Counted from the stretch's first letter, positions 33,232 to 52,973 are shown. The stretch: DNA of 64,000 nucleotides from Halanaerobium salsuginis (GCF_900114545.1 NZ_FOTI01000013.1:1-64000); one strand, 5' to 3'. A program made the numbers and translations. The notes: a model not told the origin generated them from the letters alone.

Positions 33232-33265
33232 AAAAAAACTAGCCAGTAAAATTTTACTGGCTAGT
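33232..33265 (-). terminator. Intrinsic terminator after the CE8 gene
   Basis: A perfect 28-bp palindrome (33238-33265, core CCAGTAAAATTTTACTGG) followed on the minus strand by seven T. It closes the operon that begins at 41933. Confidence 0.88.
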
Positions 33266-33309
33266 TTAATTTACTCTTTATTTTATTTAGTTAATTAATG
33301 AGGTGATAT

Positions 33310-34236
33310 TTATTTGATCTGTGGTTTCCAATCTTTTAATACATCTTTTATAGTAAATTCCTGTGCCTGTTTTTCAGTTAAAGTTCTCCGGGAGGAATTA
33401 GTTACTGCACCTGGCCCATAATTATTATATTCAAATAGTCTTGCTTCTGCCGGACTAAATCCTGACATCTGAGTCCAGCCTGTCTTTTTAATATGCTTTC
33501 CTAATTGAGAATCCCTAATTACTACAGCAGCAATTGCATCAGGATCACCGCCAGGGTGCCATGGTCTACCTAAATAAACTGTATCAGCAGCTGTATCAGC
33601 TGTAAATTCACAGTCAATGAAGAGAAACCCATAGGCATCATTAATTGAAGTACTGGCTGCAGTTATATAGCCATTAATATCCTTATTTCTATCTAAGGAA
33701 TGAATCTGACAATTCTCAAAAACAGCCTGAGCTGCACCAAATATAAAATCAACATCTCCTTCAATATAGCAATCACTAAAATATTGTCTTCCCTGATTAG
33801 CATAAAGAGTATCTTGATGGCCCAGAAAGCGAACGTTTTTGAAAACCATTTTGTCTCCCTGAGATTTAACTGCTACTGCTTGTGAACCATCATCTTGATA
33901 TTGATCACGCAGATGAGTATTAGCAAATGTTAAATTTTCAGCCTGAAAGTTATCAGCATATAAAAAAGCAGTAGAACTACCAGTAGTTCCATATTTAGTG
34001 CCATCTTCTTTTAATTTACCATTAAAATTATCATAACTAATTACAGTTTTAAATTTATCTTCACCTATCAGTTTAATAAATTGTTTTTCAGCTGGTATAT
34101 TAATAACTTCTCGATAAATTCCCTGCTTAATAAATATTTCAATTGGATAAATATTATTTTCTGGTATTTTATCAATTGCAGCCTGAATTGTATTAAAATC
34201 ACCTGTCTTATCTTTTGCAACAACTAACTTACTCAT
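33310..34236 (-). CDS. Pectin methylesterase, CE8, cytoplasmic
   Basis: About 308 residues. KLVVAKDKTGDFNTIQAAI begins the beta-helix; SQAVAVK (Gln), GHQDTLY (Gln-Asp), GDVDFIFGAAQ (Asp) and LGRPWHPGG (Arg, Trp) complete the active site. It releases methanol from methylated galacturonate units. No signal peptide. It is similar to the CE8 half of 20501-22837. A TTG at 34254 is in frame, but the ATG at 34236 begins the conserved domain, with a weak GGGGG site ten bases upstream. Last gene of its operon. Confidence 0.88.
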   Translation of the reverse strand: MSKLVVAKDKTGDFNTIQAAIDKIPENNIYPIEIFIKQGIYREVINIPAEKQFIKLIGEDKFKTVISYDNFNGKLKEDGTKYGTTGSSTAFLYADNFQAENLTFANTHLRDQYQDDGSQAVAVKSQGDKMVFKNVRFLGHQDTLYANQGRQYFSDCYIEGDVDFIFGAAQAVFENCQIHSLDRNKDINGYITAASTSINDAYGFLFIDCEFTADTAADTVYLGRPWHPGGDPDAIAAVVIRDSQLGKHIKKTGWTQMSGFSPAEARLFEYNNYGPGAVTNSSRRTLTEKQAQEFTIKDVLKDWKPQIK

Positions 34237-34264
34237 TAATTTTTTTGCCCCCAATTTAATTGAT

Positions 34265-35135: not shown

Positions 35136-37130
35136 TTAAATAATCTGATCCGCTAAATAATCACTCCACACCTTTTCAAACCAATTATCAGCAGTTGGAA
35201 TTTCTCGAACTGGGCGCCATTTAAACTCAAATTGATCATTATTATAATTAACTTCCTGGATGAGATCTGCCATTTTATCCTCATCTAAACTAAATCTAAA
35301 TTTTTCAGCTAAATCTGCTAGAGGTAATTGACCATCTGGATCTTTAATTAAATAAGAACCACGACTTTTTCCTCCCTGTTCAATATAATTTTTAAAAGCT
35401 GTTAAGTAAACATATTGAGCCAGAAGTAGATCATAATTTTGAAAAGCAAATTTAAGGTCTTGATAAGAACTAAGTTTACTCTTTTGAGCCAAATTATCCA
35501 GATCATCTTTACAGTCTTCTAGAGCTTTTTTTAGTTCAGCTAGAGAACGAATATGTGCTCCTACCTGACTCATGCGCTGACCAATTTTCTGTCGAATTTC
35601 AATTACATTAACAGTGGTTGAATTTTTAATACTTGCAACAAAAGAATTAGCTAGCTTAAGCTTGTCTTTTAATTGCAGCTCAGTTTCAGAAATAAAATCA
35701 GCTAAAGAAAGAGGCTTTCCTTGATAACGAGCCGCAATATATTGAGCTGCTCTGGTACTGCCAACTTGACCCGAATTTAAGGCTGTTCCACCTGGTCGAT
35801 AAATTCCATGACTGCCATTTACCTCACCAACTGGGAAAAAGTGCTTTAAATTACTTTCCCACCATAAATTAGCAGCAAGTCCACCATTATTATGCTGTGC
35901 ACAAACCGCTATTTCCAGCATTTCAGTTTTTAAGTCTATATTATGCTGCTGATATAAATCAATAGCCGGTTGATTCATTTTGGCTAATCTTGTAATTGGT
36001 GTGCCAAAATCAGCTTCTGAATTAATCAGATATCTAGCTGCTTCTTCTCCCAGCAAATCAAAGTTTAGCTTACCAGACTGAGAAGCAAACTCTGCATTTT
36101 GACGATAATCAAGCCAGACGCGTCTTCCTTTAATTACTGTTTCGTGATAGACTAAGATATCAATCAATGATGAGCCATAATTTGACACTTTACGGGGATC
36201 AAAGGGCCATTGATAGCCCTTCAAAAAAATTGCATCAAGCATCTTGCCAGGATCAGAAAAATAATCTGCTAAAAATTCTCGTCTATTTTTACCTTCCTGA
36301 TCAGTTGAAATGTAAGTAGGTAACACCTGTTGATAAGTTCCTGATAAATTCCAGCGAAATTTAGTTGATGCAATTCCATACTGCCATTCAGTTAAATTTT
36401 TCCCAGAAACCCCTGCCTCAAAAGCAAGTCCAGAAGCACCTGTCTGACTACCGGGGTAAACTGAGGTTTTATAAAGCCCGGCCGGACCACCTGTTGCATA
36501 AACTATATTCTTAGTGTTAAATAATGTAAATATTTCTTGACCATCTGTTAAATTATTTTTATTAAGTGTTAATACTCCAACTGCTTTTTGCTTTTTTTGG
36601 TCAGTTAAAACTGCAATAACTTGATAATTATCAAAAATTTTAATTTCTTTATTTTTAACTTCTGCTTCTAATTTTTCTGTCATATAATGAGAAGTCAACG
36701 GCCCAGCAGAAGTTGCACGTTTTCTCGGATCATGATCAGTTTTATAACCTACATATTCTCCATAAGTATTATGCGGAAAAGGAACTCCAAGCTCAACTAG
36801 ATTATAAAAAGAACGCGCTGATAGAGCAGCTTCCACTAAAGCAAGATCTCCATCCATACTACCCCCAGCAAATAAAGTCCGGGCCATCTCTAAAACCGAA
36901 TCATTTTCTCCTCCACCAAGAGTTAATTTATAATATGTTTGTTTATCAGAACCAGTATTACGGGAAGTTCCCATTTTTAATCCTTCTGTCACAACTGCAA
37001 TATCTTGCTGACCAAAATTATGTAGGCGCAAAGCAGCATTCAAGCCTGCTGCACCAGAACCAATAATAATTGTATTTAAAGAATAAACTTCAAAAGTATT
37101 TTCTCCTATTTCTAATTTACTTTGCTTCAT
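35136..37130 (-). CDS. Fumarate reductase-like FAD oxidoreductase, unknown substrate
   Basis: 664 residues. The Rossmann motif IIIGSGAAGLNAAL (about residues 21-34) binds FAD; TGGPAGLY and the late HNNGGLAANLWWESNLKHFFPVGEVNGSHG with GTALNSGQVGS are those of the succinate dehydrogenase / fumarate reductase / aspartate oxidase flavoprotein group, and the C-terminal helical domain is also present. There are no iron-sulfur or membrane-anchor partner subunits nearby and no Tat or Sec leader, so it is not a respiratory fumarate reductase. It overlaps the MOP-type transporter gene by 14 bp and precedes araC and CE8. A role in reducing or oxidising a pectin-derived acid is inference. Confidence 0.7.
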   Translation of the reverse strand: MKQSKLEIGENTFEVYSLNTIIIGSGAAGLNAALRLHNFGQQDIAVVTEGLKMGTSRNTGSDKQTYYKLTLGGGENDSVLEMARTLFAGGSMDGDLALVEAALSARSFYNLVELGVPFPHNTYGEYVGYKTDHDPRKRATSAGPLTSHYMTEKLEAEVKNKEIKIFDNYQVIAVLTDQKKQKAVGVLTLNKNNLTDGQEIFTLFNTKNIVYATGGPAGLYKTSVYPGSQTGASGLAFEAGVSGKNLTEWQYGIASTKFRWNLSGTYQQVLPTYISTDQEGKNRREFLADYFSDPGKMLDAIFLKGYQWPFDPRKVSNYGSSLIDILVYHETVIKGRRVWLDYRQNAEFASQSGKLNFDLLGEEAARYLINSEADFGTPITRLAKMNQPAIDLYQQHNIDLKTEMLEIAVCAQHNNGGLAANLWWESNLKHFFPVGEVNGSHGIYRPGGTALNSGQVGSTRAAQYIAARYQGKPLSLADFISETELQLKDKLKLANSFVASIKNSTTVNVIEIRQKIGQRMSQVGAHIRSLAELKKALEDCKDDLDNLAQKSKLSSYQDLKFAFQNYDLLLAQYVYLTAFKNYIEQGGKSRGSYLIKDPDGQLPLADLAEKFRFSLDEDKMADLIQEVNYNNDQFEFKWRPVREIPTADNWFEKVWSDYLADQII

Positions 37131-38499
37131 CTTTTCCCTGCCTTTCTAAATTAAATTTATTTTCAGCATAAATAATTTTTAAAATCTTATTCTGTTTAAT
37201 ATGCCAGGAAATTGTAACAGCATCAGCAGTTTCTCCAATTGTAATTGCTAAAGCCGCTATTATAGCTGCATTTAAGTTTGTATTTATAGTTAATATGATG
37301 AAACTAACAACAATAAATACCAAGCCTACTGTTTTCGCAACTGCAATAATAGCAGTTTGCTGTCTTCTCATCATTATTCCCCAGAAAATTTCTCGAAAAG
37401 CTCTAATAATCGGAAAAAAAACAAAAGCAAGAATAATTTTTTTAACTAAAATAGAAATTTGGGGATTAACTGCAATCAATTTAATTAAGATAAAATCTCC
37501 AACTGGAGTTAAAGATATTATTAGAAAAATTAAACTGGCTAATCCTCCTACAATAAGGGAAAATTTTAAAATTATCTGCCAATTAAAAGCATTAAGATCT
37601 TCACTATAGACTAAAGTACATTGATGCAGCATATCAAGGGACCCGACAAAAATCATTACTAAAGTCCAGCTTACTCCATAGGCAGCCAAATTGACAGTAC
37701 TAAAACTATTTCGAATAATTCCTGCCTGAACAATTGGCTGCACGAAAGGAACTAAAAAAGCCATAATTGCTATTGGAATAAAAAATTTTAAGATTGCTAT
37801 AAAACTAATTCGATAATTATTATTAGATAAATCAGCTATTACAGATTTATAATTGCCATAACTATGCCGTAAAGCAAAAAATATAAAAATAGATTCGATT
37901 GTAATACCCAACAGCCAGACTAAGCTAGCTGCCTTTATACCAGAAATAATTGGGTTTGCTGTTACCCAAATTAAAATAAAAGCAATACAGATAATTCTAA
38001 TTGTAACTCCTGGGGTTATCAATTTTGTTTTTTTTAAACTAATAGTTAATCCCTGAAAAATATTGCGAAAAGATTCTACCAGCGGGATAAAAGCCATTAT
38101 CCGGAGAGCCTGATAAGCAAAACTAATTTCCCGAGCTGTTTTTAATCCAATTAAATCACTTAAAATTAATTTGCCTAAATTAGTATAAGATAAAATTGAA
38201 ATTAAAGAAAAAATAAAAAAACCTAGCCCAAAAAGAAAAGTACTAACTAATCTAAAACTCTGCTGATCATTAACTAAAGCTGTTACAGTCTGACGAGCCA
38301 TATGTACAGGTGATTTAATTATATTAGTTATTCCTTTAGCAACTGCATAAACTGCTATCGTTATTTCAGGATAAGGTAAACGGGCTAAACTTGCATTAAC
38401 AGCATTATGTGAAATACCAATTATAATCGGCATTATTGCTAAAGGCAGAAAAAATAGAGCCAATTCCTGATATGAAATTATTTTTTGCTGATCTGCCAT
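37117..38499 (-). CDS. MOP-superfamily (MATE-like) membrane transporter
   Basis: 460 residues with about twelve hydrophobic helices in two halves. LFFLPLAIMPIIIGISHNAVNASLARLP at the start and PIVQAGIIRNSFSTVNLAAYGVSW in the second half have the feel of MATE/MOP flippases, with some likeness to the progressive-ankylosis (ANK) branch. The substrate is unknown; drugs, organic anions or glycans are all possible. Its stop codon lies inside the flavoprotein gene (14-bp overlap), so the two are made together. The upstream hydrolase gene is 12 bp away. Confidence 0.65.
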   Translation of the reverse strand: MADQQKIISYQELALFFLPLAIMPIIIGISHNAVNASLARLPYPEITIAVYAVAKGITNIIKSPVHMARQTVTALVNDQQSFRLVSTFLFGLGFFIFSLISILSYTNLGKLILSDLIGLKTAREISFAYQALRIMAFIPLVESFRNIFQGLTISLKKTKLITPGVTIRIICIAFILIWVTANPIISGIKAASLVWLLGITIESIFIFFALRHSYGNYKSVIADLSNNNYRISFIAILKFFIPIAIMAFLVPFVQPIVQAGIIRNSFSTVNLAAYGVSWTLVMIFVGSLDMLHQCTLVYSEDLNAFNWQIILKFSLIVGGLASLIFLIISLTPVGDFILIKLIAVNPQISILVKKIILAFVFFPIIRAFREIFWGIMMRRQQTAIIAVAKTVGLVFIVVSFIILTINTNLNAAIIAALAITIGETADAVTISWHIKQNKILKIIYAENKFNLERQGKDEAK

Positions 38500-38511
38500 T
38501 AAAAATGCTCC

Positions 38512-39564
38512 TTAATTAAATTTATTAAAAAACTCTATTGCCGGGCCAGCTTGAACAGCATGAGAACCCTCAATTAAACTAAAATCTAGCTTATTACTGC
38601 TGTGAAGTAATTTATATGCTTTAGCAGCTATCTGCTCAGCTTTTTTAGCTGATTCAATTGGAAAAAGTTGATCATGAACTGCTGCCTGTAATAATAATGG
38701 CTTAGGAGCAATAGCAGCCAGAATATCTGGTAATTCAGCATAATTAAGAATACCCGGCAGATAATTATCCAGACAATGTCTTCTGGCCATAATACTATCT
38801 TTATAAAATGATGGATATCCACTAACCATAACTGCATTTATTTCTGGTAAAAAAAGAGCTGCCAAAATAGCAATTGGGGCTCCACCAGAAAAGCCTACAC
38901 AATTAATCTCAGTTAATTCAAACTCATCATTTTCAGTTAAATATTTAACAGCACTCATTAAATCCAAGAGGCGGAGCTTAGCAGTTGTCTGTCCTAAAAG
39001 CAAAAGTTGACTGCTAATTCGATAACAAGAGTTAGCTGTTCTATCTTTTTTTAATTCAGGATCAGCTAAATAATCATCTCTTAACCTGCGATCTCCAAAG
39101 CCAATCAGCTCAGGCAGAATGACAATATAGCCTGCTTTAGCAAATTCAACTGCCAGGTCATTATGACAGGTAGACTGATCTAGTTTTTCACCCCGGGCAT
39201 TTAGACCAACAGCCTCTCGAACTCCATTGCCATGACCATGTGCAATAACTACTGCTTTTTGATTAAAATTTTTTATTTTAGGAAGTAGCAAATAAGCAGG
39301 TAATTCCAGATAGTCTTTAACTTTATATGAAATTCTTAATCTTATATAGTCAGTTAAAACTTCACGGTTAAGTAAAGTAACAGCTTGATCAACTTCTACT
39401 TGATCTGGTAAACCACCAATTACTTCTGCTAATTTTGCTTTCAAGTTTTCCCGCCATAATTTCCATTCAATTAAATTGGCAGCTTTAAAAATAAATTGTC
39501 GTTCTTTTTTTTGATAAAGCTTTTCCAGATAGATATCAGGAGAGAAGTCTTTATTTTTTTTCAT
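38512..39564 (-). CDS. Alpha/beta-hydrolase, acetyl-esterase-like, cytoplasmic
   Basis: 350 residues. AVVIAHGHGNG forms the oxyanion loop, NCVGFSGGAPIA carries the nucleophile Ser, VHDQLFPI the Asp and IEGSHAVQ the His. An N-terminal helical region of about 90 residues precedes the fold. It resembles the Abhydrolase_7/acetyl xylan esterase-like group. No signal peptide. Between GH28 and the transporter in an operon, it probably removes an acyl group from a pectic oligomer. Confidence 0.7.
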   Translation of the reverse strand: MKKNKDFSPDIYLEKLYQKKERQFIFKAANLIEWKLWRENLKAKLAEVIGGLPDQVEVDQAVTLLNREVLTDYIRLRISYKVKDYLELPAYLLLPKIKNFNQKAVVIAHGHGNGVREAVGLNARGEKLDQSTCHNDLAVEFAKAGYIVILPELIGFGDRRLRDDYLADPELKKDRTANSCYRISSQLLLLGQTTAKLRLLDLMSAVKYLTENDEFELTEINCVGFSGGAPIAILAALFLPEINAVMVSGYPSFYKDSIMARRHCLDNYLPGILNYAELPDILAAIAPKPLLLQAAVHDQLFPIESAKKAEQIAAKAYKLLHSSNKLDFSLIEGSHAVQAGPAIEFFNKFN

Positions 39565-39588: not shown

Positions 39589-40911
39589 CTATTGCTGTTG
39601 ACAGCTGCATTCGCTTACTTCTAGTTGATCAACATTGCTAAATTTAAATTGTAGCTCAGCTTTTAGCTTAAGCTTTACCTGCTTTAAATTCAATCTACTA
39701 AGATTACTTACTTGAAGACCTTTACTGCCAGATAAATCAATTTTTTCTAAAGTTATAGATTCCATTTTCTGTTCAGGTAAACCTCGTAATACTATTGGCT
39801 GTTCAATATTTTCTCCACTTATATTACGTATAGTAATATTTCTAAATAAAGGAGGCATTTCTGTCTGTGGTTCAACAGTTGTTGCATCATAATACATATT
39901 TAAAATGATCCCTTCTGCCCGTAGATCATTAATCTCTATATCTTCAAATAACAGATTCTCTACTACACCACCACGACCTCTCATTGATTTAAGTCGAATG
40001 CCACGTTCACCGCCATTAAAACTACAATTATGAACATGAATATTTTTTACTCCACCTGACATTTCACTGCCAATTACTATCCCACCGTGACCTTCTTTAG
40101 CTTTACAATTACGAATAACTAAATTCTCACAGGGTTTATTAACTCGCCGTCCATCTTCATTAATTCCTGACTTAATAGCTATACAGTCATCTCCTGTTTC
40201 AAAATCACAGTTCTCAATTAACATATTGCTACATGAGTCAGGATTTATACCATCTGTATTCGGACCATTAGTAATTATTTTTAAGTTTCTAATAATTGTA
40301 TTTTCACAATAAACGGGATGAATTGTCCACATTGGTCCATCAACTATAGTAATCCCTTCAATAAGAATATTTTTAGAATTAATTGGCTGAATAAACTGTG
40401 GTCGCAGGCCTTTTTCAATCCCAAAAATACGATCTGCAACAGCTATGTCATTATATTGAGCATCATATAATTTCTGGGCTGCCTGCTGCTGAGTTTGTTT
40501 CCAGGGCCACCATTTTTCACCATTGCCAACTAGTTTACCCTGGCCAGTAAGAGCAATATTTTCACAATTAGCAGCATAAATTAAAGGTGAATAATTATAA
40601 CATTCATTTCCTTCCCAGCGGGTAAAAACTACTGGTAAATAATCAGCAAAATTATCACTAAAATAAATGGTAGCATCTGCTTCAAGTCTTAAATTAATAT
40701 TACTTTTAAAGTGAATTGGGCCTGTAAACCAATCACCAGCTGGAACTAAAACTGTACCTCCACCTGCTTGATGGCAGCTATTTATTGCTTCTGCAAAAAC
40801 TTCACTATTATCAAATTTACCATCACCAACAGCTCCAAATTCCTTTATATTAAAAGTTTTCTCTGGAAATTCAGGCTGTCTAACCGTAACTTCAAACTCA
40901 TTTTTTAACAT
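39589..40911 (-). CDS. GH28 polygalacturonase, cytoplasmic
   Basis: About 440 residues. Motifs NTDG (PNTDGINPDSC), GDD (TGDDCIAIKSG), GHGG and RLK (RLKSMRGRGG) are complete, and NIKEFGAVGDGKFDN starts the helix. The third GH28 domain in the locus, closest in layout to 31788-33074, with an additional insert near residues 140-190 (WKQTQQQAAQKLYDAQYND). No signal peptide. The ATG at 40911 follows GGAGG; the in-frame TTG at 40923 overlaps that site. Confidence 0.9.
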   Translation of the reverse strand: MLKNEFEVTVRQPEFPEKTFNIKEFGAVGDGKFDNSEVFAEAINSCHQAGGGTVLVPAGDWFTGPIHFKSNINLRLEADATIYFSDNFADYLPVVFTRWEGNECYNYSPLIYAANCENIALTGQGKLVGNGEKWWPWKQTQQQAAQKLYDAQYNDIAVADRIFGIEKGLRPQFIQPINSKNILIEGITIVDGPMWTIHPVYCENTIIRNLKIITNGPNTDGINPDSCSNMLIENCDFETGDDCIAIKSGINEDGRRVNKPCENLVIRNCKAKEGHGGIVIGSEMSGGVKNIHVHNCSFNGGERGIRLKSMRGRGGVVENLLFEDIEINDLRAEGIILNMYYDATTVEPQTEMPPLFRNITIRNISGENIEQPIVLRGLPEQKMESITLEKIDLSGSKGLQVSNLSRLNLKQVKLKLKAELQFKFSNVDQLEVSECSCQQQ

Positions 40912-40946
40912 TTTAACCTCCAATTAACTTAAAATTTTAATACCAT

Positions 40947-41933
40947 TTAAAATTCAATTACTTTATTTTGATCTGCAGAATTTCTAGCACAGAGAGCTGC
41001 TTGAGTTACTCGAAAAGACTCTTGCGCACTGATCAAACAAGTTTTTTCACCTTTTAGATCAGCTAAAAAGTCAGCAAATATTTCTTCTGCTGCCACTAGA
41101 GGTATTTCTCTAATACCATCAATTTGATCATTAATTAAATAGACTTTTTCTTTTAGAACTTCAATTACACCAGTAGTTCCAGCAATTCTGATACGATCAT
41201 CATCATGACTGGGAGCTTTAGCTGGGCGCAGATAATCAATATTAACTGACCCAAATACATCATCTTCAAATCTAAAATGACAGAGTGCACTTGCTTCCAG
41301 TTCACCATGGTTGTGATTAGACTTTGCTGAATGAGAAGCATAAACTGATTTAAAATCTTTTCCACTCAACCACTGCATCCAGTCAATAGCATGACTGCCT
41401 ACCCAGGGAATAGTGCCGCCATAGCTAACTCTTTTTTTATAAAAATCTTCCCGCTCACCAAGCCGATAAGATTTTTGGGCATTCATTAATCTAACTTCTC
41501 CTATTGCACCTGCTTTAATCTGACGATAAGCTGTTAAAAACCACGGTTTATAGCGAATTCCAAACATAGCAGCCAGACGAGATTTGCTTGCTTGATAAGC
41601 ATTTCTTACCTTTTCTAGATCAGCTAAAGTAGTCGCTATAGGCTTTTCAACAAACAAATCAATATCTTGTTTTAAGACATCAATTGCTATACGAGCATGA
41701 TCACCAAAATGACAGGCAACAGCTGCTACATCAGGCTCTAACTCAGCTAACATTTTTTGATAGTCTTCATACTTTTTTATATCATAATCACGTTTTAACT
41801 TTTGATATAAAGGTGTTACATCTTCTCCTGCAGAACCAGGTGCGATACCAATAATTTCATCTTCATAATTATTTTTTAACCCATTAACCACATATTTAGT
41901 ATGTCCTGTTGCACCAATTAAAACTATTTTCAT
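40947..41933 (-). CDS. Gfo/Idh/MocA-family oxidoreductase
   Basis: 328 residues. VLIGATGHTKYVVNGL is an NAD(P)-binding motif, and DLFVEKPIATTL carries the EKP lysine of the family. SYGGTIPWVGSHAIDWMQWLSG contains the conserved histidine-aspartate pair of the substrate site. The family oxidises or isomerises cyclic sugars through keto intermediates; the substrate here is unknown. First gene of the run down to 33310, 28 bp downstream of a regulon palindrome. Confidence 0.8.
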   Translation of the reverse strand: MKIVLIGATGHTKYVVNGLKNNYEDEIIGIAPGSAGEDVTPLYQKLKRDYDIKKYEDYQKMLAELEPDVAAVACHFGDHARIAIDVLKQDIDLFVEKPIATTLADLEKVRNAYQASKSRLAAMFGIRYKPWFLTAYRQIKAGAIGEVRLMNAQKSYRLGEREDFYKKRVSYGGTIPWVGSHAIDWMQWLSGKDFKSVYASHSAKSNHNHGELEASALCHFRFEDDVFGSVNIDYLRPAKAPSHDDDRIRIAGTTGVIEVLKEKVYLINDQIDGIREIPLVAAEEIFADFLADLKGEKTCLISAQESFRVTQAALCARNSADQNKVIEF

Positions 41934-42070: not shown

Positions 42071-43576
42071 TTAAAGAGTAACGCCATCTTTAAAAATAGC
42101 AATCTCGCGATAATTATGCTCTTCATTTTTAGTTTTAATATCTTTTGAAGCAACTTTAAGTAAATAATCAAAAAATTCTCCAGCAAGATCATCCATCTGC
42201 CTATCTTCTAATAGCTGACCTGCATTAAAATCAATCCAGTTTTGTTTTTTCTCATAGATTCTACTATTCGAAGAAACTTTAACTGTTGGTACAGGACCAC
42301 CAAATGGGGTACCTCTTCCAGTTGTAAATAAAACCATATGAGCACCAGAAACTGAAAGTGCTGTAGTAGCTACCAGATCATTGCCAGGGCTTTCTAATAA
42401 GTTCAAGCCCTTACCTTCAACTGGATCACCATAAAAGAAAACATCATTTACAATGCCTGTACCCCCTTTTTGAGTACAGCCCAATGATTTTTCTTCTAAA
42501 GTAGTAATTCCACCTTCTTTATTTCCTGGAGATGGATTCTCATAAATTTCCTGATCATGAGAAATAAAATAATCTTTAAAACCATTAACTAATTTAACTA
42601 CTTTATCAAAAGTAGCTTTATCTTTAGCTCGGTTCATTAAAATAGTTTCTGCTCCAAACATCTCAGGTACTTCTGTTAAAATACTAGTTCCACCATAAGC
42701 AGCTAATTTATCAGATATTTTTCCTAGAAGTGGATTGGCTGTTACACCAGAAAACCCATCTGAACCGCCACATTTTAAGCCAATTTTAAGCTCAGAGACT
42801 GGAATATCTTCTTGCTCAAATTTTTGGGCGTAATCAATTAACCCATCTAAAATTGATTCTGCAACTTTGAGATCATCTTCTACATCCTGTAAATCAATAA
42901 ATTTAACTCGATCAGAATTATATTCACCAATTATTTCTTTGAAATCAGCAATCAAATTATTTTCACAGCCTAAACCAACTACTAAAACTGCAGCTGCATT
43001 AGGATGATTTACCATCCCTGCTAGAGCTTTTTGAGTGTTTTTTAAATCACCAGCCAGCTGAGAACATCCATAAGGATGAGGAAAGGCATGAATACTATCA
43101 ATTTTACCAGCATCAATTAAGGGTTGATGTTTTATTTCTGCCTGTAAAGCCATCCTCTCTACAACTTTATTAATACAGCCAACTGTATTAATAATCCAGA
43201 TATCATTTCTAATCCCAACTTTTCCATTTTTTCTTCTATAACCACGAAAAGTTGGGATTTCTTCTGGTTTTGTGGTCTCAGGTAGATCAGGCTGATAATT
43301 ATAATTTAATTTCCCTTCTAAAGCTGTTTTTAAATTATGAGTATGAATCCATTCTCCTTTTTTTACAGCTGCAGTTGTTTTACCAATTGGAAAGCCATAA
43401 CGGATTACTTCTTCTCCAGCTTTAAAATCACGCAGAGCTACTTTATGACCAACAGGAATATCAGCTAATAGTTCTATTTTTTCAGAACCTACTGTTATAT
43501 TTTGACCAGCTTTTAACTCTTCGACAGCTATTACAATATTATCATTTTTATTTATTAAAAGTGTTTTTGTTCCCAT
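42071..43576 (-). CDS. uxaA: Altronate dehydratase
   Basis: 501 residues, the full two-part enzyme: an N-terminal SAF domain (about 1-95, VALRDFKAGEEVIRYGFPIG) and the C-terminal dehydratase (FRGYRRKNGKVGIRNDIWIINTVGCIN, FPHPYGCSQL, LKCGGSDGFSGVTANP). It dehydrates D-altronate to 2-keto-3-deoxygluconate, the last uronate-specific step, and depends on iron. It is the last gene of the operon starting at 54266, after a hairpin (43598-43629) that separates it from uxaC. Confidence 0.92.
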   Translation of the reverse strand: MGTKTLLINKNDNIVIAVEELKAGQNITVGSEKIELLADIPVGHKVALRDFKAGEEVIRYGFPIGKTTAAVKKGEWIHTHNLKTALEGKLNYNYQPDLPETTKPEEIPTFRGYRRKNGKVGIRNDIWIINTVGCINKVVERMALQAEIKHQPLIDAGKIDSIHAFPHPYGCSQLAGDLKNTQKALAGMVNHPNAAAVLVVGLGCENNLIADFKEIIGEYNSDRVKFIDLQDVEDDLKVAESILDGLIDYAQKFEQEDIPVSELKIGLKCGGSDGFSGVTANPLLGKISDKLAAYGGTSILTEVPEMFGAETILMNRAKDKATFDKVVKLVNGFKDYFISHDQEIYENPSPGNKEGGITTLEEKSLGCTQKGGTGIVNDVFFYGDPVEGKGLNLLESPGNDLVATTALSVSGAHMVLFTTGRGTPFGGPVPTVKVSSNSRIYEKKQNWIDFNAGQLLEDRQMDDLAGEFFDYLLKVASKDIKTKNEEHNYREIAIFKDGVTL

Positions 43577-43597
43577 TTGAACCTCCTAGTTATTTTA

Positions 43598-43629
43598 AAT
43601 AGCCTGGAATATAAAATCTCCAGGCTATT
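43598..43629 (-). other. Hairpin between uxaC and uxaA
   Basis: Perfect 11-base arms (AATAGCCTGGA and its complement). Followed on the minus strand by TTAAAATAACT, not a real T run. It may attenuate transcription or protect the upstream mRNA. Confidence 0.5.
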
Positions 43630-43677
43630 AAATTTCTATTTACTTAGTTTGATCTCTATTTAATTCTAATTTATTAA

Positions 43678-45048
43678 TTACTTTTCACTAAAAAATAGTT
43701 TTTTGGGACCATAATAACTAACATGAGCTACTAAATCAGCAGCTACATTATAAGGCATTCTACCTCTATCAACCTGACGGCCAACAACATTAGCTAGAGT
43801 TCTTCTAAACATTTCTGTCCGGGAAGAATAAGACATTAATTTACGGGAGTCAGTTACCATACCGGCTAAATTATAAAATAAATCAACAGTTGTTACCTGC
43901 TGCATTTGTTTTTCCATTCCATAAGGACTATCAGTTAACCACCAGGGTGCTCCCAGAGAAACATTGGGGAAAGCTCTGGAAATAGTTGAAGCTGTAAACC
44001 AGTGGGTTGGTTCCATAGTATAAAGAACAATATCCAGTTTAGAATCAAACTGGTTAACAAAGTATCTAATATTTTCAGCAATCTCAATATCACTATTTGA
44101 AATATCGCCACCTGCATCGGGTCCTAAATTATCGTATACTTTTTCTCGATAATCACGAATAGCTCCAATATGAAGTTGAGTCACCCAACCACTAGCCTGG
44201 TTTAACTTAGCAAATTCAAGCAGAATGAAAGCTTTAAAATCTCTAATTTCTTTGCTGCTCAATTCCTCTCCAGCAACTGCTTTTTTATAAATCACAGCAG
44301 CATCTCCTTCTGCTACAGCATAAGAAATAGGTTCAACAATACCATGATCACTAGCAACACAGCCTTGTTCAGCAAAATAATCATGTGATTTTTGCAGAGC
44401 AGTTAATAAACCGCTTAAATCGTCAACTTCTGTTTTGAAAGCATCTCCTAATTTAGTAACATATTCTTGCCATTTATCTGCTTCAATATTCATTATTTTA
44501 TCAGGTCGCCAGGTAGGTAAAATTTTAACTCCATCTACTTGCTGACGTGCTTTTTTATGACCTTCAAGTAAAGAATATGGTTCATCGGTAGTGCACATAA
44601 TCTCTACATTCATTTCCTTTAGAACATTTTGGGGCTTCATTGCAGAAGTAGCCAACATATTTTTAGTCTTCTGCCAGATCATTTCTGCAGTATGAGCAGA
44701 AATTGCTTCTTCAATACCAAATCTTCTTTTTAAATCAAGATGAATCCATTCATAAGTTGGATTACCGGCAATTTCTGGGAAAATACCTGCTAAAGCTAAC
44801 CATTTTTCTTTATTAGTAGCAGAACCAGTAATTTTTTCTTCAGGTACACCTCTTTTACGCATCATTTCCCAGACATAATGATCAGTTGCTGCTTCAACTT
44901 CCCAGATGTCCGACCAGCCTTCATTTTTGAGAATTTCATCAATATCACCATGATTATGAGCATCAAGAATAGGTAAATTCTCAATTTCCTGATATAATTT
45001 AGCAGCTGTTTCTCCTTCAAGTAAATAATTTTTGTCTAAAAAAGCCAT
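43678..45048 (-). CDS. uxaC: Uronate isomerase
   Basis: About 456 residues, an amidohydrolase-type barrel. LPILDAHNHGDIDEIL supplies the metal-binding His-x-His-like motif; LHIGAIRDYR, and SLGAPWWLTDSPYGM with TDSRKLMSYSSRTEMFRR at the end are diagnostic of UxaC. It isomerises D-galacturonate to D-tagaturonate and D-glucuronate to D-fructuronate. The ATG at 45048 is preceded by AAGGAGGAG; a further 16-residue extension to 45096 would overlap uxaE and has no ribosome site. Confidence 0.92.
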   Translation of the reverse strand: MAFLDKNYLLEGETAAKLYQEIENLPILDAHNHGDIDEILKNEGWSDIWEVEAATDHYVWEMMRKRGVPEEKITGSATNKEKWLALAGIFPEIAGNPTYEWIHLDLKRRFGIEEAISAHTAEMIWQKTKNMLATSAMKPQNVLKEMNVEIMCTTDEPYSLLEGHKKARQQVDGVKILPTWRPDKIMNIEADKWQEYVTKLGDAFKTEVDDLSGLLTALQKSHDYFAEQGCVASDHGIVEPISYAVAEGDAAVIYKKAVAGEELSSKEIRDFKAFILLEFAKLNQASGWVTQLHIGAIRDYREKVYDNLGPDAGGDISNSDIEIAENIRYFVNQFDSKLDIVLYTMEPTHWFTASTISRAFPNVSLGAPWWLTDSPYGMEKQMQQVTTVDLFYNLAGMVTDSRKLMSYSSRTEMFRRTLANVVGRQVDRGRMPYNVAADLVAHVSYYGPKKLFFSEK

Positions 45049-45078
45049 TTTACTCCTCCTTAAATCTATCTTTAATTT

Positions 45079-45092
45079 TGAAATTGTTTTCA
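45079..45092. promoter_or_regulatory. Degenerate pectin-regulon palindrome before uxaC
   Basis: TGAAATTGTTTTCA reads as TGAAAACAATTTCA on the minus strand, sharing twelve inner bases with 41961-41974. It lies at the end of uxaE, 31 bp before uxaC, so it would be an internal site in the operon. Confidence 0.4.
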
Positions 45093-46616
45093 TCAAGCTT
45101 GATAAAATCCTAATTCTTCGAGATGACGTCCAATATGACTGGCTAAAGCTGATCGATATTCTTTCTCATGATCAGACCAGCAGCTATAAAGCCGATCTCT
45201 AAAAATATAATTACCATCTCTTTTATCCTGCAGAATAAAACCATAGGTAATATGCAAAAGCTGTCTTACTTCATTAATTTCTAACAGCTGACCTAGTTCA
45301 GCATCACTTATTTTAGCAAGTGATGGCACTTTATCAAGATCAGTAGTTACATGATAATATTCCTTAGCAGCAGAAAATTTTTCTAAAGCATAAGCATGAA
45401 TATCACGATATAAGGCGGGATCATGCTCAGCAATCACCTTAACTGCTGCTAACCAATTTGTCCCGGCGGTTTTAACATGAACTCTTCCCCCAGTATATTT
45501 ACCGATAATTGGGAAAACACTAAATTTATCACTTCCAGAATGAATACTAAGTTTATAGCCAAATAAATCAGCAATTTCAGCATGAACTTTAAATTCTTTT
45601 TTAAACTGCTCTAAATCACCTATATAATCAATACCTTTCTGAAATTCTCCCACGAAACGAGGTGCTAAACTATTAACTTTTATTTTATTTCTTTTTAGCT
45701 CATTAGCTACAAAATAGTGAGCTTCCAGAGTAGTTGCAGTTGAAGTTTCATCAATAGAAATTTCAAAATCAACATCTCTTTCTGATTTTTTTAATAAGTG
45801 ATTTATCTCAGCAGCAAAGTCAATCATTTTATAATAAATCAAAACAATTTCTTTAAGTTTATCTACTGTATATTCCAACTCATAACCAGAATTCAAAACA
45901 AATGTTTTGTTGAGATAGGTATCTTCCCAACCATTTCTCAAATGTTCTGGAACTTCCTGATAAAGTTCATCAATTTCTGCCTCAGATAGCTGATCCAGAT
46001 CATCATTGATATATTCTGTGCAGTCAAGAGTTAACATTGTATAACCAAGATCAAGTGCATTTTCTATATCTGTTTTTTGCTTTAAATGATCAGCATCAGC
46101 AGCAAAACCAGCTTGATAACCTTCCTGAAAAACAGCCCAACTTACATCATCAAGAACTGACTTAAATGTTCTTCCAGTAAGATTTAGTTCCCTTACAGAC
46201 TGCTGTGCCAGGACAGGTAGTGCCTTACTCTCTCTAACTACAGCTATATGGCCAGGAGTTGCTATTCCAAGACGATCGCCAAGACCAATGCTGGCAGTTT
46301 GATTACCAAGAGCTTGAGGAGCTGTAAAAGAGAATAGCTCTCTCAATATCTCTGCATTATAGTGACTCAAAGGAGCCAGCTTAGCTTTAAAACCAGCCAG
46401 TTTTTCAGTCTTTCCCTGAAAACGTTCAAACTCTTTACTTTGATTTAAAATAATGAGTTTTTTACTTTGATCTACTTTAGCTAAAAAATAAAAGGACTTG
46501 CCTTTTTTAATAATAGATTTGGGATAGATTCTATAGTCATCAGCATATTCAGCAACCTTCTGGATAGCATCTTTCGAAGTACCAACTAGTTCTTCTGCAA
46601 AATCTTTCCAGGACAT
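45093..46616 (-). CDS. uxaE: Tagaturonate epimerase
   Basis: About 507 residues. The sequence runs as in UxaE of Thermotoga and relatives: IGLGDRLGIATPGHIA near the start, FAADADHLK, FEISIDETSTATT, LAPRFVGEFQKGIDY and YKLSIHSGSDKFSVFP. The family epimerises D-tagaturonate and D-fructuronate, linking galacturonate and glucuronate catabolism. The ATG at 46616 follows GGGAGG; an in-frame TTG at 46631 precedes that site. Between uxaB and uxaC. Confidence 0.9.
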   Translation of the reverse strand: MSWKDFAEELVGTSKDAIQKVAEYADDYRIYPKSIIKKGKSFYFLAKVDQSKKLIILNQSKEFERFQGKTEKLAGFKAKLAPLSHYNAEILRELFSFTAPQALGNQTASIGLGDRLGIATPGHIAVVRESKALPVLAQQSVRELNLTGRTFKSVLDDVSWAVFQEGYQAGFAADADHLKQKTDIENALDLGYTMLTLDCTEYINDDLDQLSEAEIDELYQEVPEHLRNGWEDTYLNKTFVLNSGYELEYTVDKLKEIVLIYYKMIDFAAEINHLLKKSERDVDFEISIDETSTATTLEAHYFVANELKRNKIKVNSLAPRFVGEFQKGIDYIGDLEQFKKEFKVHAEIADLFGYKLSIHSGSDKFSVFPIIGKYTGGRVHVKTAGTNWLAAVKVIAEHDPALYRDIHAYALEKFSAAKEYYHVTTDLDKVPSLAKISDAELGQLLEINEVRQLLHITYGFILQDKRDGNYIFRDRLYSCWSDHEKEYRSALASHIGRHLEELGFYQA

Positions 46617-46713
46617 AATATTACCTCCCAATTTGTTAATAAAATTTAGTTTTAATACTAATCTAAACAGCTTTATAAATTAAATTTTTCTGTTTAAAAT
46701 AAAGTATTATTCT

Positions 46714-48252
46714 CTATTTAATTAACTTCTCTAAACTGGCTTTCATTCCTGCTTTTTTTATCATTTTTAAATTGCTAACTACCGACTCAGTTAAACCAGG
46801 TAATTGATTTAAATCTCGGTCCCAAAAATCCTGATTAGCCAGTACGTCTCTTCCCAGCTCAGCCAGAGTTATTTCTGCTGCTTTAAATTCACTCCATAGT
46901 TGGGCAAAATATTCTAAGGCTGATTTATCATCCCTGATTAAATACTTATCTTCTCCTCGATATGCAACTAATTTACCATTCTCAAGCTCTGTTCCCTGAT
47001 AAAAGGTTATTAAAGCTGCTAAGGAAAAACTTAATCTGGCTGGCACTTTCGATAATTGCTCAATATGTTGAACTAGAGAAGGCAATACTCTTGTCTTGAA
47101 TTTTGAAGTTGAGTTAAGCGAAATATCAAGCCATTTATGATCTATATATGGATTTTTGAAACGTTCAAAAATCTTATGAGCAAAATCATCTAGTTCAGCT
47201 GGATCTGCTGCAAGAGTTGGTATTATATCTTCAAAAACTGCTTGTTTAATAAATTCCCCAACTAACTCATCATTAACTGCATCTCTTACCAGGTCAATAC
47301 CTGCTAAATAAGAAACTGGTACTGTTGAAGTATGAGCTCCATTTAAAATTCTAACTTTAGTTGTTCTATAAGGTGTTAAATCATCTACCCATTTGACATT
47401 TAAACCGGCTTTATGAAAAGGTAATTTTTCTTTTAAACTTTCATCACCTTCAATAACCCAGAGATGGAAGATCTCTCCTGTATCCAGATTTTGATCATGA
47501 TAAGCTAACTCTTTTTCCAATTTATCTATTTCATTAAAAGGATATCCTGTTACTATCCTGTCAACCAGAGTATTTAAAAAATGATTTGACTCTTTAATCC
47601 AGCTGCTAAATTCTGCTTCTAAATTCCAATCTTCAGCTAGCTGTAGAATAATTCTTTTGAGATTATCTCCGTTACGATCAATTAATTCAACTGGAATAAT
47701 AACCATTCCTTTTCCAGGATCTCCGTTAAAACTCTGGTAACGTCTGTATAAATAAGCTGTTAACTTACCGGGATATGATTCGGGTGGGGTATCTGTTAAT
47801 TGATCAGTCTCATTATAGCTAATCCCGGCTTCGGTTGTATTAGAAACTACAAACTCAACTGCAGGATCTTCAGCTAATTTTAAAAACTGTTCCCATTCTG
47901 TATAGGAGTTTAAGCCACGAGAAATTGCTGTCATAATTTCTTTTTTATTTACTTCTTTACCATTTTCTATTCCCCGCAAGTAAAGTGTATAGAGACCATC
48001 TTGCTGATTTAAATTAGCTACTCTACCTTCGGCAATTGGCTGTACAACAACTGCCCTACCTTTAAATATACCTTTTTTATTCATGGTATGAAACATCCAA
48101 TCAACAAAAGCTCTTAAAAAGTTACCTTCTCCAATTTGAACTACCTTTTCGGGATAATCAAGAATTTCAGCTGAAAAATCTGCCAGCTCTGTTCCCATTA
48201 ATTCTGATTCTAAATACTCTCTGTTAAGCATTGGTAAATTGTCTTCAGACAT
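46714..48252 (-). CDS. uxaB: Tagaturonate reductase (altronate oxidoreductase)
   Basis: About 512 residues of the mannitol dehydrogenase family. VVQIGEGNFLRAFVDWMFH is the nucleotide-binding start, FVVSNTTEAGI follows, and KVRILNGAHTS carries the catalytic lysine region, typical of UxaB. It reduces D-tagaturonate to D-altronate with NADH. The ATG at 48252 has AGGAGG seven bases before it; the 12 extra residues upstream (KKDSIKKRRQK) are not expected to be translated. Confidence 0.92.
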   Translation of the reverse strand: MSEDNLPMLNREYLESELMGTELADFSAEILDYPEKVVQIGEGNFLRAFVDWMFHTMNKKGIFKGRAVVVQPIAEGRVANLNQQDGLYTLYLRGIENGKEVNKKEIMTAISRGLNSYTEWEQFLKLAEDPAVEFVVSNTTEAGISYNETDQLTDTPPESYPGKLTAYLYRRYQSFNGDPGKGMVIIPVELIDRNGDNLKRIILQLAEDWNLEAEFSSWIKESNHFLNTLVDRIVTGYPFNEIDKLEKELAYHDQNLDTGEIFHLWVIEGDESLKEKLPFHKAGLNVKWVDDLTPYRTTKVRILNGAHTSTVPVSYLAGIDLVRDAVNDELVGEFIKQAVFEDIIPTLAADPAELDDFAHKIFERFKNPYIDHKWLDISLNSTSKFKTRVLPSLVQHIEQLSKVPARLSFSLAALITFYQGTELENGKLVAYRGEDKYLIRDDKSALEYFAQLWSEFKAAEITLAELGRDVLANQDFWDRDLNQLPGLTESVVSNLKMIKKAGMKASLEKLIK

Positions 48253-48370
48253 TTTTTGCCTCCTCTTTTTAATTGAATCTTTTTTCACTTTAAAATTAGC
48301 CTTCTCTTATTATGATACTAAATATAAATAATATTAACAATTAAATAATTTGTTTTTTTATTCATTAAAT

Positions 48371-48426: not shown

Positions 48427-49734
48427 TTAATTCGATTTTTTAGCCGCCTGTTTTTCAGCTCTTAGCTGCTGATAAATTGGTAAATAGAGTTCTCTATCTC
48501 TAATTACACAACCAGCATTTTTACCCGGAGCAGCCTTTAATTCTGCACATTTACTGCAGCTGATACAAACTTTATTTTTATCCATTTTTCCTTTAGTAAA
48601 TAAATCACTTGGAAAATTAGGATAAGCAAATCCCTGCCTGCCAAAACCAGCTAGATCAATCCAATCTGCTTTGACCATTCCTGCTGCTGCTAGAGCTCCA
48701 AATTGTCTTAGCCAGCTAAATCCCGTTCCAATAACACGAGTTGTGCTGAGATTCTCTTTAGTAAATTTACTTAGACTAAGCAGTCTTTTTACTCCTAAAA
48801 GAGGATGTTCTGGTGGCTGATAAGATCCCATATCATAAGGACGATTAATATGAGGTTTCAAATAGGGCGTACTAGCTGTTACATTAATAACTTTAACTCC
48901 CCAATTTTCTAATTCTAATAATAATTTTTTTACCTCTGCTAAGTCAGGATTACCACTACTATCTGTTGCCCAACCATCAGGAATAGCATCATAGATATTT
49001 AAACGCACAGCTAAATCAATTTCTAATTCATTGCTAACTTTTTGAATAACTTCCCGCAAAAATCTAGTCCTATTTTCATAACTACCACCATATTTACCAG
49101 GTCTATCTTTAGCTGCTAGCAAAGCAGAAAGCAAATAACGATGACAGCTTTTAATATCAACAGCATCAAAACCAGCTTTTGCTGCTAATTTTGCACCTCT
49201 TAAATAATCATTTTGTAAATTATCAAGCTCAGCATCAGTTATAATATGGAAATCGTTTTCTTTAATTGAAATTGGATCTAATTCTTTACTTCTGTTAACA
49301 ATAATATTATTTTCTCCAAATCTACCAGAATGGGTTAACTGAGCAACAAGATAAGGTGGCTGTTCTGTTTCTGATCGGATAAGCTCGACTAATGCTTTAA
49401 AATCCGGTAAGGTTGTTTCATTTAAATATAGTTGGGTATTATTAGCTCTACCACCTGCCTCAACTGCAATGGCTTCTAGCCAAATTAAAGCAGCTCCACC
49501 AGCAGCAAATCTTTGATATCTTCTTTTAGTTAGTGAAGATGGTGTCCCATCTGGATTAGAATCTGAACCTTCCATAGGGTGAATAGCCAGCCTATTTTTA
49601 AGCAATTTATCACCAATTTTTATTGTCTGTGCCAGGATATCCGTGTCCTCAGATAAAGGAAGTTCAAAATTTATTTCAGTTAAATCTGCCTGTAATTCCT
49701 TTAGAGAACTATATTTGAATTTTTCCCCTTGCAT
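48427..49734 (-). CDS. Old-yellow-enzyme-like flavin oxidoreductase with Fe-S motif
   Basis: 435 residues, a single TIM barrel. KNRLAIHPMEGSD and QLTHSGRFG bind FMN; KYGGSYENRTRF is the classical OYE signature. The C-terminus has CISCSKCAELKAAPGKNAGC, four cysteines for an iron-sulfur cluster, but the FAD/NAD domain of 2,4-dienoyl-CoA reductases is absent. The usual IHGAHGYL segment reads IKSCHRYL, replacing the first substrate-side histidine by lysine. Such enzymes reduce activated C=C bonds. Within the uronate operon, an unsaturated or keto-deoxy sugar acid could be the substrate, but this is inference. Confidence 0.75.
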   Translation of the reverse strand: MQGEKFKYSSLKELQADLTEINFELPLSEDTDILAQTIKIGDKLLKNRLAIHPMEGSDSNPDGTPSSLTKRRYQRFAAGGAALIWLEAIAVEAGGRANNTQLYLNETTLPDFKALVELIRSETEQPPYLVAQLTHSGRFGENNIIVNRSKELDPISIKENDFHIITDAELDNLQNDYLRGAKLAAKAGFDAVDIKSCHRYLLSALLAAKDRPGKYGGSYENRTRFLREVIQKVSNELEIDLAVRLNIYDAIPDGWATDSSGNPDLAEVKKLLLELENWGVKVINVTASTPYLKPHINRPYDMGSYQPPEHPLLGVKRLLSLSKFTKENLSTTRVIGTGFSWLRQFGALAAAGMVKADWIDLAGFGRQGFAYPNFPSDLFTKGKMDKNKVCISCSKCAELKAAPGKNAGCVIRDRELYLPIYQQLRAEKQAAKKSN

Positions 49735-49750
49735 TTAATCAAATCCCTTC

Positions 49751-50974
49751 TTAATTAAATGGGTTAAACCCAGAATAGTTCTCAACATTAACCCATTCTG
49801 TTTTAGCAGTCCAGTCTAGATCTAAATCAGATAATAATTTTCTTTCCTTAAAAGCCTGCCCAATTAATTTATCAATACCAGGCATAATAGTCTGATATTC
49901 TCCTGCTTCATTAGTAAATTCTTTTACTTTAGCAACAGGAATAGTTCTTATTTTTTTAGCTGAATCATATGCTGCATTAATTGCAACAACAAAGTTGCGA
50001 GTATTTGTTGGAGTGCAATATAAATGTTCAATTAAGCCAAGCTGCTTATCAGCTGCTATTCTAAATACTTCTTTTTTGGGATCAAGCCCTTCATTATCAA
50101 ATTCTATTACTTGACCGTCATTTAATTCTATTTTAGTTTTCTCATTCATCTGCCAGGTTATTTTACCTTTACTTCCTACAATCTCCATAATTGGATCTTG
50201 CTTTTGCTCAGGGACATGAGTCACATAAAAATAAATTTTAGTTCCAGTTGTAGTTTCTAATTCAAGACAAGAATTATCATCTGCTTCGATATAAGTATGT
50301 GCTTTATATAACTCTGCTCTAACTTTTTTTACAGTAGCTGAACTATGTATATCTGAACCAGCTATAAAGATCATATTATTTAAATAGTGAGCAAAAGCAT
50401 TATGCATTGGTCCATCAAGTACTAATTGGCCCATAGCTACACTTTTACCAGCCCAATCATTGCGGTCATAATATGATTTAGTCCGCGGCCATAATCCTTT
50501 AGTAGCAATTTCTTTTAATTCCCCAAGTTTACCTTCTAAAATAAACTGTTTGATTTTTCTAATTGTGTGAGAATGAATATACTGAAATCCAATTGAACAA
50601 AAACGCCCAGTTTCTTTTTCAGTTTTAATCATTGCATCTACTTCCTGAACTGTTGGTGCAGGTGGTTTTTCTAACAATACATTATAACCAGCCCGCATAG
50701 CTTTAATTGCCATCTCTGAATGAGTAGGAATAGAAACTGGCAAACCAATTACATCAACACAGGGCTTGGCTTCCTTTAATAAACTTTCGTAAGAATTAAA
50801 AATAGCTATTCCTTTATGCCTTAGTTCCCTTACTTTATCAGCATTATTAACCTGATCATTAACTACTACTGCAGTAAGTTTTATCTTGCCTTCTTGCTCC
50901 AATTCTTCAATATTATTTAAATAGCTGCTGGCAAAATTACGTACCCCAACAACTGCAAAACCAACTTCTGACAT
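49751..50974 (-). CDS. Gfo/Idh/MocA-family oxidoreductase
   Basis: About 407 residues. FAVVGVRNFASSYLNNI is the dinucleotide-binding start; VLLEKPPAPTVQEV carries the EKP motif. The C-terminal sheet domain has an extra segment and the protein is longer than its relative at 40947-41933 and only distantly similar. Substrate unknown. The ATG at 50974 has AAGGAGG eight bases before it. It lies between the sugar permeases and the OYE-like gene. Confidence 0.8.
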   Translation of the reverse strand: MSEVGFAVVGVRNFASSYLNNIEELEQEGKIKLTAVVVNDQVNNADKVRELRHKGIAIFNSYESLLKEAKPCVDVIGLPVSIPTHSEMAIKAMRAGYNVLLEKPPAPTVQEVDAMIKTEKETGRFCSIGFQYIHSHTIRKIKQFILEGKLGELKEIATKGLWPRTKSYYDRNDWAGKSVAMGQLVLDGPMHNAFAHYLNNMIFIAGSDIHSSATVKKVRAELYKAHTYIEADDNSCLELETTTGTKIYFYVTHVPEQKQDPIMEIVGSKGKITWQMNEKTKIELNDGQVIEFDNEGLDPKKEVFRIAADKQLGLIEHLYCTPTNTRNFVVAINAAYDSAKKIRTIPVAKVKEFTNEAGEYQTIMPGIDKLIGQAFKERKLLSDLDLDWTAKTEWVNVENYSGFNPFN

Positions 50975-51021
50975 TAAAAATACCTCCTTGAGTTTTAACA
51001 CAATTTATAAAAATATAATTA

Positions 51022-51870: not shown

Positions 51871-51873
51871 CAA

Positions 51874-52824: not shown

Positions 52825-52882
52825 AAATATTCCCTCCTCAAAATTAGGTGTTAAAACAAATAAAGTAAATAGCAACAATTTA

Positions 52883-52919
52883 TAAGCTAGTGACCAATAT
52901 TAATTTGGTCACTAGCTTA
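52883..52919 (-). other. Stable hairpin between binding-protein and permease genes
   Basis: Perfect 15-base arms (52883-52897 and 52905-52919). The T run lies on the plus side only, so on the minus-strand transcript it has no U tract after the stem. It more likely stabilises the 3' end of the binding-protein mRNA than ends transcription. Confidence 0.6.
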
Positions 52920-52973
52920 GTTTTTTTATTTTATCAGCTATTTTATTTTTCTTTAATTATTATTAGAAGTATC

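Follow-up and report, generated by a model that had tools for sequence, protein, structure and literature searches.

Our results are best read as placing FLAV, a flavoprotein encoded inside a pectin operon of Halanaerobium salsuginis, in a widespread and apparently undescribed module of two flavin enzymes and a NAD-dependent dehydrogenase, which acts on a sugar acid and was recruited into this operon. Very probably, the functional context of FLAV is this combination of an Old Yellow Enzyme-family protein (OYE) and dehydrogenases, and not the transporter whose gene it overlaps.

Gene organization of the pectin operon

The window, by which we mean the whole stretch of 64,000 nucleotides that was analysed, belongs to a genome of 3.0 Mb (G000). 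It contains the following features:

51022..54266, minus strand: ABC importer, substrate-binding protein and two permeases
49751..51001, minus strand: MocA2, Gfo/Idh/MocA dehydrogenase, 16 bp upstream of OYE
48427..49734, minus strand: OYE, Old Yellow Enzyme-family FMN protein with a C-terminal CxxCxxC-x12-C [4Fe-4S] motif
42071..48288, minus strand: hexuronate pathway genes as a group, namely the next four
46714..48288, minus strand: UxaB tagaturonate reductase
45093..46631, minus strand: UxaE
43678..45096, minus strand: UxaC
42071..43576, minus strand: UxaA-like GD_AH
40947..41933, minus strand: MocA1, Gfo/Idh/MocA dehydrogenase
39589..40923, minus strand: GH28, no signal peptide seen; nearest NCBIfam model alpha-D-galacturonidase, below cut-off
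38512..39564, minus strand: esterase, alpha/beta-hydrolase (Abhydrolase_7/DLH) with a GFSGG nucleophile motif, 350 aa
37117..38499, minus strand: ANKH/MATE-type transporter (MOP fold), 460 aa
35136..37130, minus strand: FLAV, FAD flavoprotein of FrdA/SdhA fold from a widespread family without characterised member, 664 aa
34265..35107, minus strand: AraC-family regulator
33310..34254, minus strand: CE8 pectin methylesterase, no signal peptide seen
33236..33267, minus strand: strong intrinsic terminator past CE8, 14-bp stem and T tail

The genes are given in their order on the minus strand, from 54266 to 33310 (ABC importer, MocA2, OYE, UxaB, UxaE, UxaC, UxaA, MocA1, GH28, esterase, transporter, FLAV, AraC, CE8). 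The operon structure was read from the gene spacing. From MocA1 (40947) to CE8 the intergenic gaps measure 23, 24, 12, -14, 28 and 10 bp, and the terminator is likely the end of the operon. An earlier note on this DNA had described a 14-bp overlap of the transporter and FLAV genes, with an esterase before them and AraC and CE8 after them; these gene calls were correct, and the overlap lies at 37117-37130. Esterase, transporter and FLAV stand head to tail between GH28 and AraC-CE8. It did not mention the OYE and MocA homologues at 48427-51001, which belong to the same gene run, upstream of this cassette. The gene order is not a product of chance, since the transporter-FLAV pair with adjoining esterase recurs in five further Halanaerobium genomes.

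No signal peptide was seen on GH28, CE8 or the esterase in a crude hydropathy check, and oligogalacturonides are therefore probably processed inside the cell. Elsewhere in the window, a single 778-aa protein (20501-22837), also with no signal peptide seen, is a fusion of GH28 and CE8 (pectin methylesterase). Another protein of 1265 aa (15569-19366) is a probable secreted pectate lyase: a hydrophobic segment lies at its N-terminus, and it carries four Big_3 Ig-like domains together with a weak Pel9A-like beta-helix.

Fold and active site of FLAV

FLAV matches the Pfam family FAD_binding_2 (PF00890) with 64 bits against a cut-off of 20.4. Its AlphaFold model (pLDDT 91) matches FrdA, SdhA and NadB along its full length, with Z scores of 36-44 and 16-20% identity; the best structural match was 5vpn_A (Z 43.6, rmsd 3.8, 546 aligned residues, VIA-align). 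The active site was mapped with a MAFFT family alignment that included FrdA, SdhA and NadB of E. coli. In this alignment, the catalytic arginine of FrdA (R288, gene numbering) falls on S320 of FLAV, which is invariant in 52/52 sequences, a match that rests on MAFFT, as the hhalign alignment covers the whole chain and is loose in the capping domain. The histidine of the HPTG motif (FrdA H233) aligns with the equally invariant G252, and the covalent-FAD histidine (FrdA H45) with T59. The substrate-binding R391 of FrdA is retained as R445, the only one of the four compared sites that was kept. Across 52 FLAV sequences, including that of E. coli HS, no variation occurs at Ser320, Gly252, Gln412, His413 and Arg445, and S320/S321/D324, Q412/H413 and KGYQWPF are invariant in the family down to E. 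coli. Together with GSDKQT, TDHD and SSxxD, the last of these forms a set of invariant motifs specific to the family. The FLAV family retains the fold but has an altered active site. The previous description of FLAV as fumarate-reductase-like holds for its FrdA/SdhA fold and fails for the catalytic arginine and the HPTG histidine; on the same active-site mapping, we rejected fumarate reductase as its function.

Iron-sulphur or membrane subunits of a respiratory complex were absent among the ORFs scanned around FLAV (about 30 of 45), as the earlier note had stated. This absence, the FrdA fold and the retained substrate arginine would fit a soluble fumarate or enoate reductase, for which an unsaturated acid such as unsaturated galacturonate or a cinnamate-type acid serves as anaerobic electron sink. 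Pectin lyases can indeed yield unsaturated uronates. However, the proton-donor arginine of FrdA is replaced by the invariant serine, the HPTG histidine is lost, the FLAV chain has no cytochrome or Fe-S partner domain, and all NCBIfam reductase models score far below their cut-offs. An electron sink of this kind, as had been suggested for this locus, is possible but not indicated, because the active site of FLAV is unlike that of a fumarate-type enoate reductase, and we consider this explanation quite improbable.

The chance that FLAV is an L-aspartate oxidase of NAD biosynthesis is practically negligible. The PF00890 match and a remote similarity to NadB are in its favour, but the catalytic residues Arg290 and His244 of NadB align with S320 and G252, the NadB models reach only 49-78 bits against cut-offs of 450-640 (TIGR00551, 75 bits vs 453), and neither nadA nor nadC was seen beside FLAV. 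This agrees with the earlier view that FLAV is not a plain aspartate oxidase.

Genomic neighbours of FLAV

At least 556 stretches in GTDB genomes contain relatives of FLAV. The best 80 of these share 51-73% identity with it and include Clostridia, Halanaerobiales, Aminicenantes, KSB1, Planctomycetes and Acidobacteria. We counted the neighbours of FLAV in 53 non-pectin loci of at least 12 kb from many phyla and in 32 control loci, the latter from the window's relatives only: OYE and short-chain dehydrogenases (SDR) were each found in 35/53 FLAV loci vs 0/32 controls (p=7e-11 for both), and one or the other in 42/53 vs 0/32, which leaves 11/53 loci with neither within reach. TIM-barrel proteins (15/53 vs 0/32, p=0.0004) and any gene of the 2-keto-3-deoxygluconate (KDG) pathway (17/53 vs 1/32, p=0.0009) were also more frequent near FLAV than in these controls, and MocA (8/53) and Zn-alcohol dehydrogenases (11/53) were likewise enriched. 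TRAP/TTT transporters were not enriched (11/53 vs 5/32). Uroporphyrinogen-decarboxylase-like proteins, CoA transferases and enoyl-CoA hydratases were set aside as general partners, as they are limited to subclades.

The association of FLAV with OYE is also apparent at the level of genomes. Among 61 relatives, 16 have both genes, 2 FLAV alone, 2 OYE alone and 41 neither (Fisher p=1e-10, relatives not independent), so that OYE accompanies FLAV in 16 of the 18 FLAV-bearing relatives. Within Halanaerobium, a close OYE occurs in 9/9 genomes with FLAV and in 0/3 without it. Against a joint module stands the distance of 11 kb between the two genes in the window.

The OYE of the window matches PF00724 with 105 bits (cut-off 27), and its Cys390/393/396/409 are at least 98% conserved among 43 homologues. 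Its invariant Lys195 and His198 (98% conserved) presumably take the first and second positions of the canonical His-x2-His/Asn pair. At two other loci (L050:6583-9204 and L096:2-2527), OYE is fused to a module for NAD(P)H, FAD and Fe-S that by eye resembles GltD and dihydropyrimidine dehydrogenase, which suggests that OYE is fed from NAD(P)H. G032 has an open frame of 892 aa at its OYE.

The SDR and TIM-barrel enzyme of the module are absent from the window, and the best SDR elsewhere in the genome reaches 38%. Possibly, MocA1 and MocA2 stand in for the missing SDR. Homologues of MocA1 (51-53%) are found in OYE-MocA-MocA-SDR-FLAV clusters of other Halanaerobiales, and the pairing of MocA2 with OYE recurs in G008 and other Halanaerobiales.

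OYE was also met without FLAV, beside MocA, TIM-barrel proteins and glycosidases, and hence the two flavoproteins need not act on one intermediate. Pectin-type Halanaerobium carry such second OYE copies without FLAV (L175:3470-14981, L174:6736-11351, L173:542-4037), among them an OYE-TIM-MocA set by apparent GH31/GH130 genes and an OYE by a GH112 homologue; these copies suggest a wider OYE-based sugar pathway.

An alternative explanation is an oxidative deglycosylation of the 3-keto type, which would start with the oxidation of a glycoside or uronide by MocA/FLAV, continue with an elimination by a TIM-barrel enzyme, and end with the reduction of the resulting enone by OYE. MocA and AP_endonuc_2 TIM proteins recur near both OYE and FLAV, OYE-TIM-MocA sets lie by glycosidase-like genes and OYE by GH112, and the MocA proteins have a weak similarity to models of levoglucosan and glycoside 3-dehydrogenases. 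Yet, these MocA scores are far below the curated cut-offs, many loci have SDR and KDG genes in place of glycosidases, and no dedicated lyase was identified in the loci. We regard this explanation as unlikely.

Transporter and esterase

The transporter matches the ANKH family (PF07260) with 53.2 bits vs a cut-off of 22, and its model matches MATE structures (Foldseek E 6e-8). From human ANKH and the MATE exporters of the MOP superfamily, which it resembles in this way, it differs in that it is bacterial and linked with pectin only in some Halanaerobium. The esterase is, from its sequence, probably a cytoplasmic carbohydrate esterase.

GH28, transporter and esterase occur in the same six of 12 Halanaerobium genomes (6/6 vs 0/6; Fisher p=0.002, shared descent not corrected), whereas FLAV and OYE occur in these six and in three of the GH28-less genomes. 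The proposed link of the cassette with pectin is therefore sustained for the transporter and esterase, but not for FLAV. When relatives were looked at for the transporter-FLAV pair, it was not unlinked from pectin genes in all of them. Nevertheless, FLAV stands without transporter and esterase in these three GH28-less Halanaerobium and in 53/53 non-pectin loci, which speaks against the earlier proposal that transporter and FLAV form a functional unit. ANK homologues elsewhere in the order do not adjoin FLAV, esterase or GH28.

This bears on the reading that transporter and FLAV act on one pectin-derived compound, for instance an unsaturated acid that FLAV reduces and whose product the transporter exports. 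The overlap of their genes, the order conserved in six pectin-type Halanaerobium and the exact match of transporter and esterase with GH28 in the genus are all consistent with it. In contrast, FLAV regularly occurs without this transporter, the ANK homologues outside these loci do not have FLAV as a neighbour, and genes that overlap within an operon frequently serve unrelated steps, which makes a shared compound improbable. In our reading, esterase and transporter are accessory to pectin and not to FLAV.

In G057, from another family, a pectate-lyase-like gene lies between FLAV and a second esterase-transporter pair at a distance of about 11 kb; hence the link with pectin extends beyond one genus. 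This pair may have arrived by transfer. In G001, two frames share the esterase gene (L104:15756-16744), and in G003 the transporter gene is broken up and contains in-frame stops (L110:3202-4053), each by decay or assembly error.

Comparison with known systems

FLAV resembles FrdA, SdhA and NadB in whole-chain fold and substrate-binding arginine, and differs from them in its own invariant motifs, its lack of the catalytic arginine, the HPTG and covalent-FAD histidines, and its lack of B, C or D subunits. The equol-forming trio of daidzein, dihydrodaidzein and tetrahydrodaidzein reductases combines an OYE-type enzyme with [4Fe-4S], an SDR and an FAD_binding_2 protein in one cluster. Equol formation proceeds by enone reduction, ketone reduction and then hydroxyl removal (PMC12645574). 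OYE, SDR and FLAV stand together in many loci of the relatives, but the window lacks the SDR and has MocA instead. The equol trio, however, acts on an isoflavone in other organisms, whereas the context here is that of sugar acids and KDG, and we consider the likeness an analogy by enzyme class, not membership. The reductases of bile-acid 7-dehydroxylation (BaiCD/BaiH, BaiA, BaiN/BaiJ) follow a similar logic of OYE, SDR and FAD flavoprotein. Unlike BaiCD, the OYE of the window has no fused NAD(P)H domain, and it scores 76 bits with the BaiCD model (cut-off 825). The KduI/KduD and Uxa hexuronate pathways share the destination KDG, and the Uxa genes lie in the same operon as FLAV; to our knowledge, these pathways need no flavoprotein. 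We found no description of a cluster of OYE, fumarate-reductase-like protein and sugar-acid genes in the literature, of which our coverage was incomplete.

A possible flavin-dependent route to KDG

A recurring set of dehydrogenase, OYE, FLAV and TIM-barrel genes that ends at KDG kinase and KDPG aldolase, or at Uxa enzymes, suggests a route from a sugar acid to KDG. A KDG-directed mechanism of a MocA/SDR, OYE and FLAV module seems to us slightly favoured by the data. From fold, gene linkage, co-occurrence, the lost catalytic residues of fumarate reductase and the family-specific invariant site, we infer the following steps. The cytoplasmic module would consist of a MocA and/or SDR as NAD(P) dehydrogenase, OYE (FMN, [4Fe-4S]) and FLAV (FAD), often with a TIM-barrel isomerase or lyase, and would yield KDG or an intermediate of the Uxa pathway. 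Its substrate would be imported and sugar-acid-like, and probably derived from a hexuronate. The NAD enzyme would interconvert a hydroxyl and a carbonyl group, NAD(P)H-fed OYE would reduce an activated C=C bond, and FLAV may catalyse a neighbouring dehydrogenation or reduction through Arg445. The sugar acid would thus undergo an oxidation or reduction at a hydroxyl group, then a rearrangement, and reach KDG through one or two flavin-dependent hydride transfers, with a net deoxygenation or double-bond shuffle as in the OYE, SDR and FAD_binding_2 trios of equol formation. For the pectin operon, a modified galacturonate is a possible substrate; the esterase would probably deacylate imported oligogalacturonides, and the by-product that the transporter might export could be an acid. 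Gene content singled out none of ascorbate, inositol, quinate, 4-O-methylglucuronate or unsaturated uronate as substrate.

More tentatively, and with somewhat less than even confidence, we propose an undescribed catabolic route from a sugar acid to KDG that bypasses the classical isomerase-dehydratase steps. The deoxygenation or rearrangement would be the work of OYE, of a second flavoenzyme with a repurposed fumarate reductase fold, and of NAD dehydrogenases. Such a route would be widespread in Clostridia, Halanaerobiales, Aminicenantes and Planctomycetes, with a distant branch in more than half of the E. coli genomes. If real, this flavin-dependent route would offer anaerobes and gut bacteria a new way to use plant sugar acids, and would give the fumarate reductase fold a new role. 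FLAV represents a large family for which we found no function in the literature; its partners and the KDG/hexuronate end point narrow the search for its substrate.

FLAV clusters in Halanaerobium, E. coli and Rhizobium

In the FLAV tree, the proteins of the six pectin-type Halanaerobium and of G008 form one fully supported clade. G008, tentatively H. praevalens-like and GH28-less, has the cluster ABC-GH112-MocA2-OYE-TIM-FLAV-KDPG aldolase-KDG kinase, and the GH112 gene inside this KDG cluster (L107:4123-6309) is of the lacto-N-biose phosphorylase type. The other two GH28-less Halanaerobium with FLAV, G006 and G009, have LacI-OYE-SDR-FLAV-TTT; in H. congolense (G006), OYE-SDR-FLAV-TTT transporter is followed by UxaB-UxaE-UxaC-UxaA.

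The E. coli and Rhizobium branches offer genetically tractable hosts, including the commensal E. coli HS (homologue ECHS_RS21920), for finding the substrate. A FLAV homologue with 37% identity is present in 3106/5426 complete E. coli genomes (~57%), and the records inspected give it generic product names. Its locus (SDR-TIM-enoyl-CoA hydratase-CoA transferase-FLAV-TRAP) lies between ytfB and rplI, divergent from a TetR gene, and in E. coli HS corresponds to L129:1524-10447 (NC_009800.1, about 4451404-4460327). SDR and TIM are common to this locus and the Firmicutes module, but OYE is absent from it. Since FLAV of the E. coli type adjoins genes for CoA transferase and enoyl-CoA hydratase but no OYE, the family may have several substrates. 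In the Rhizobium branch, the gene order is MocA-FLAV-sugar kinase-aldolase.
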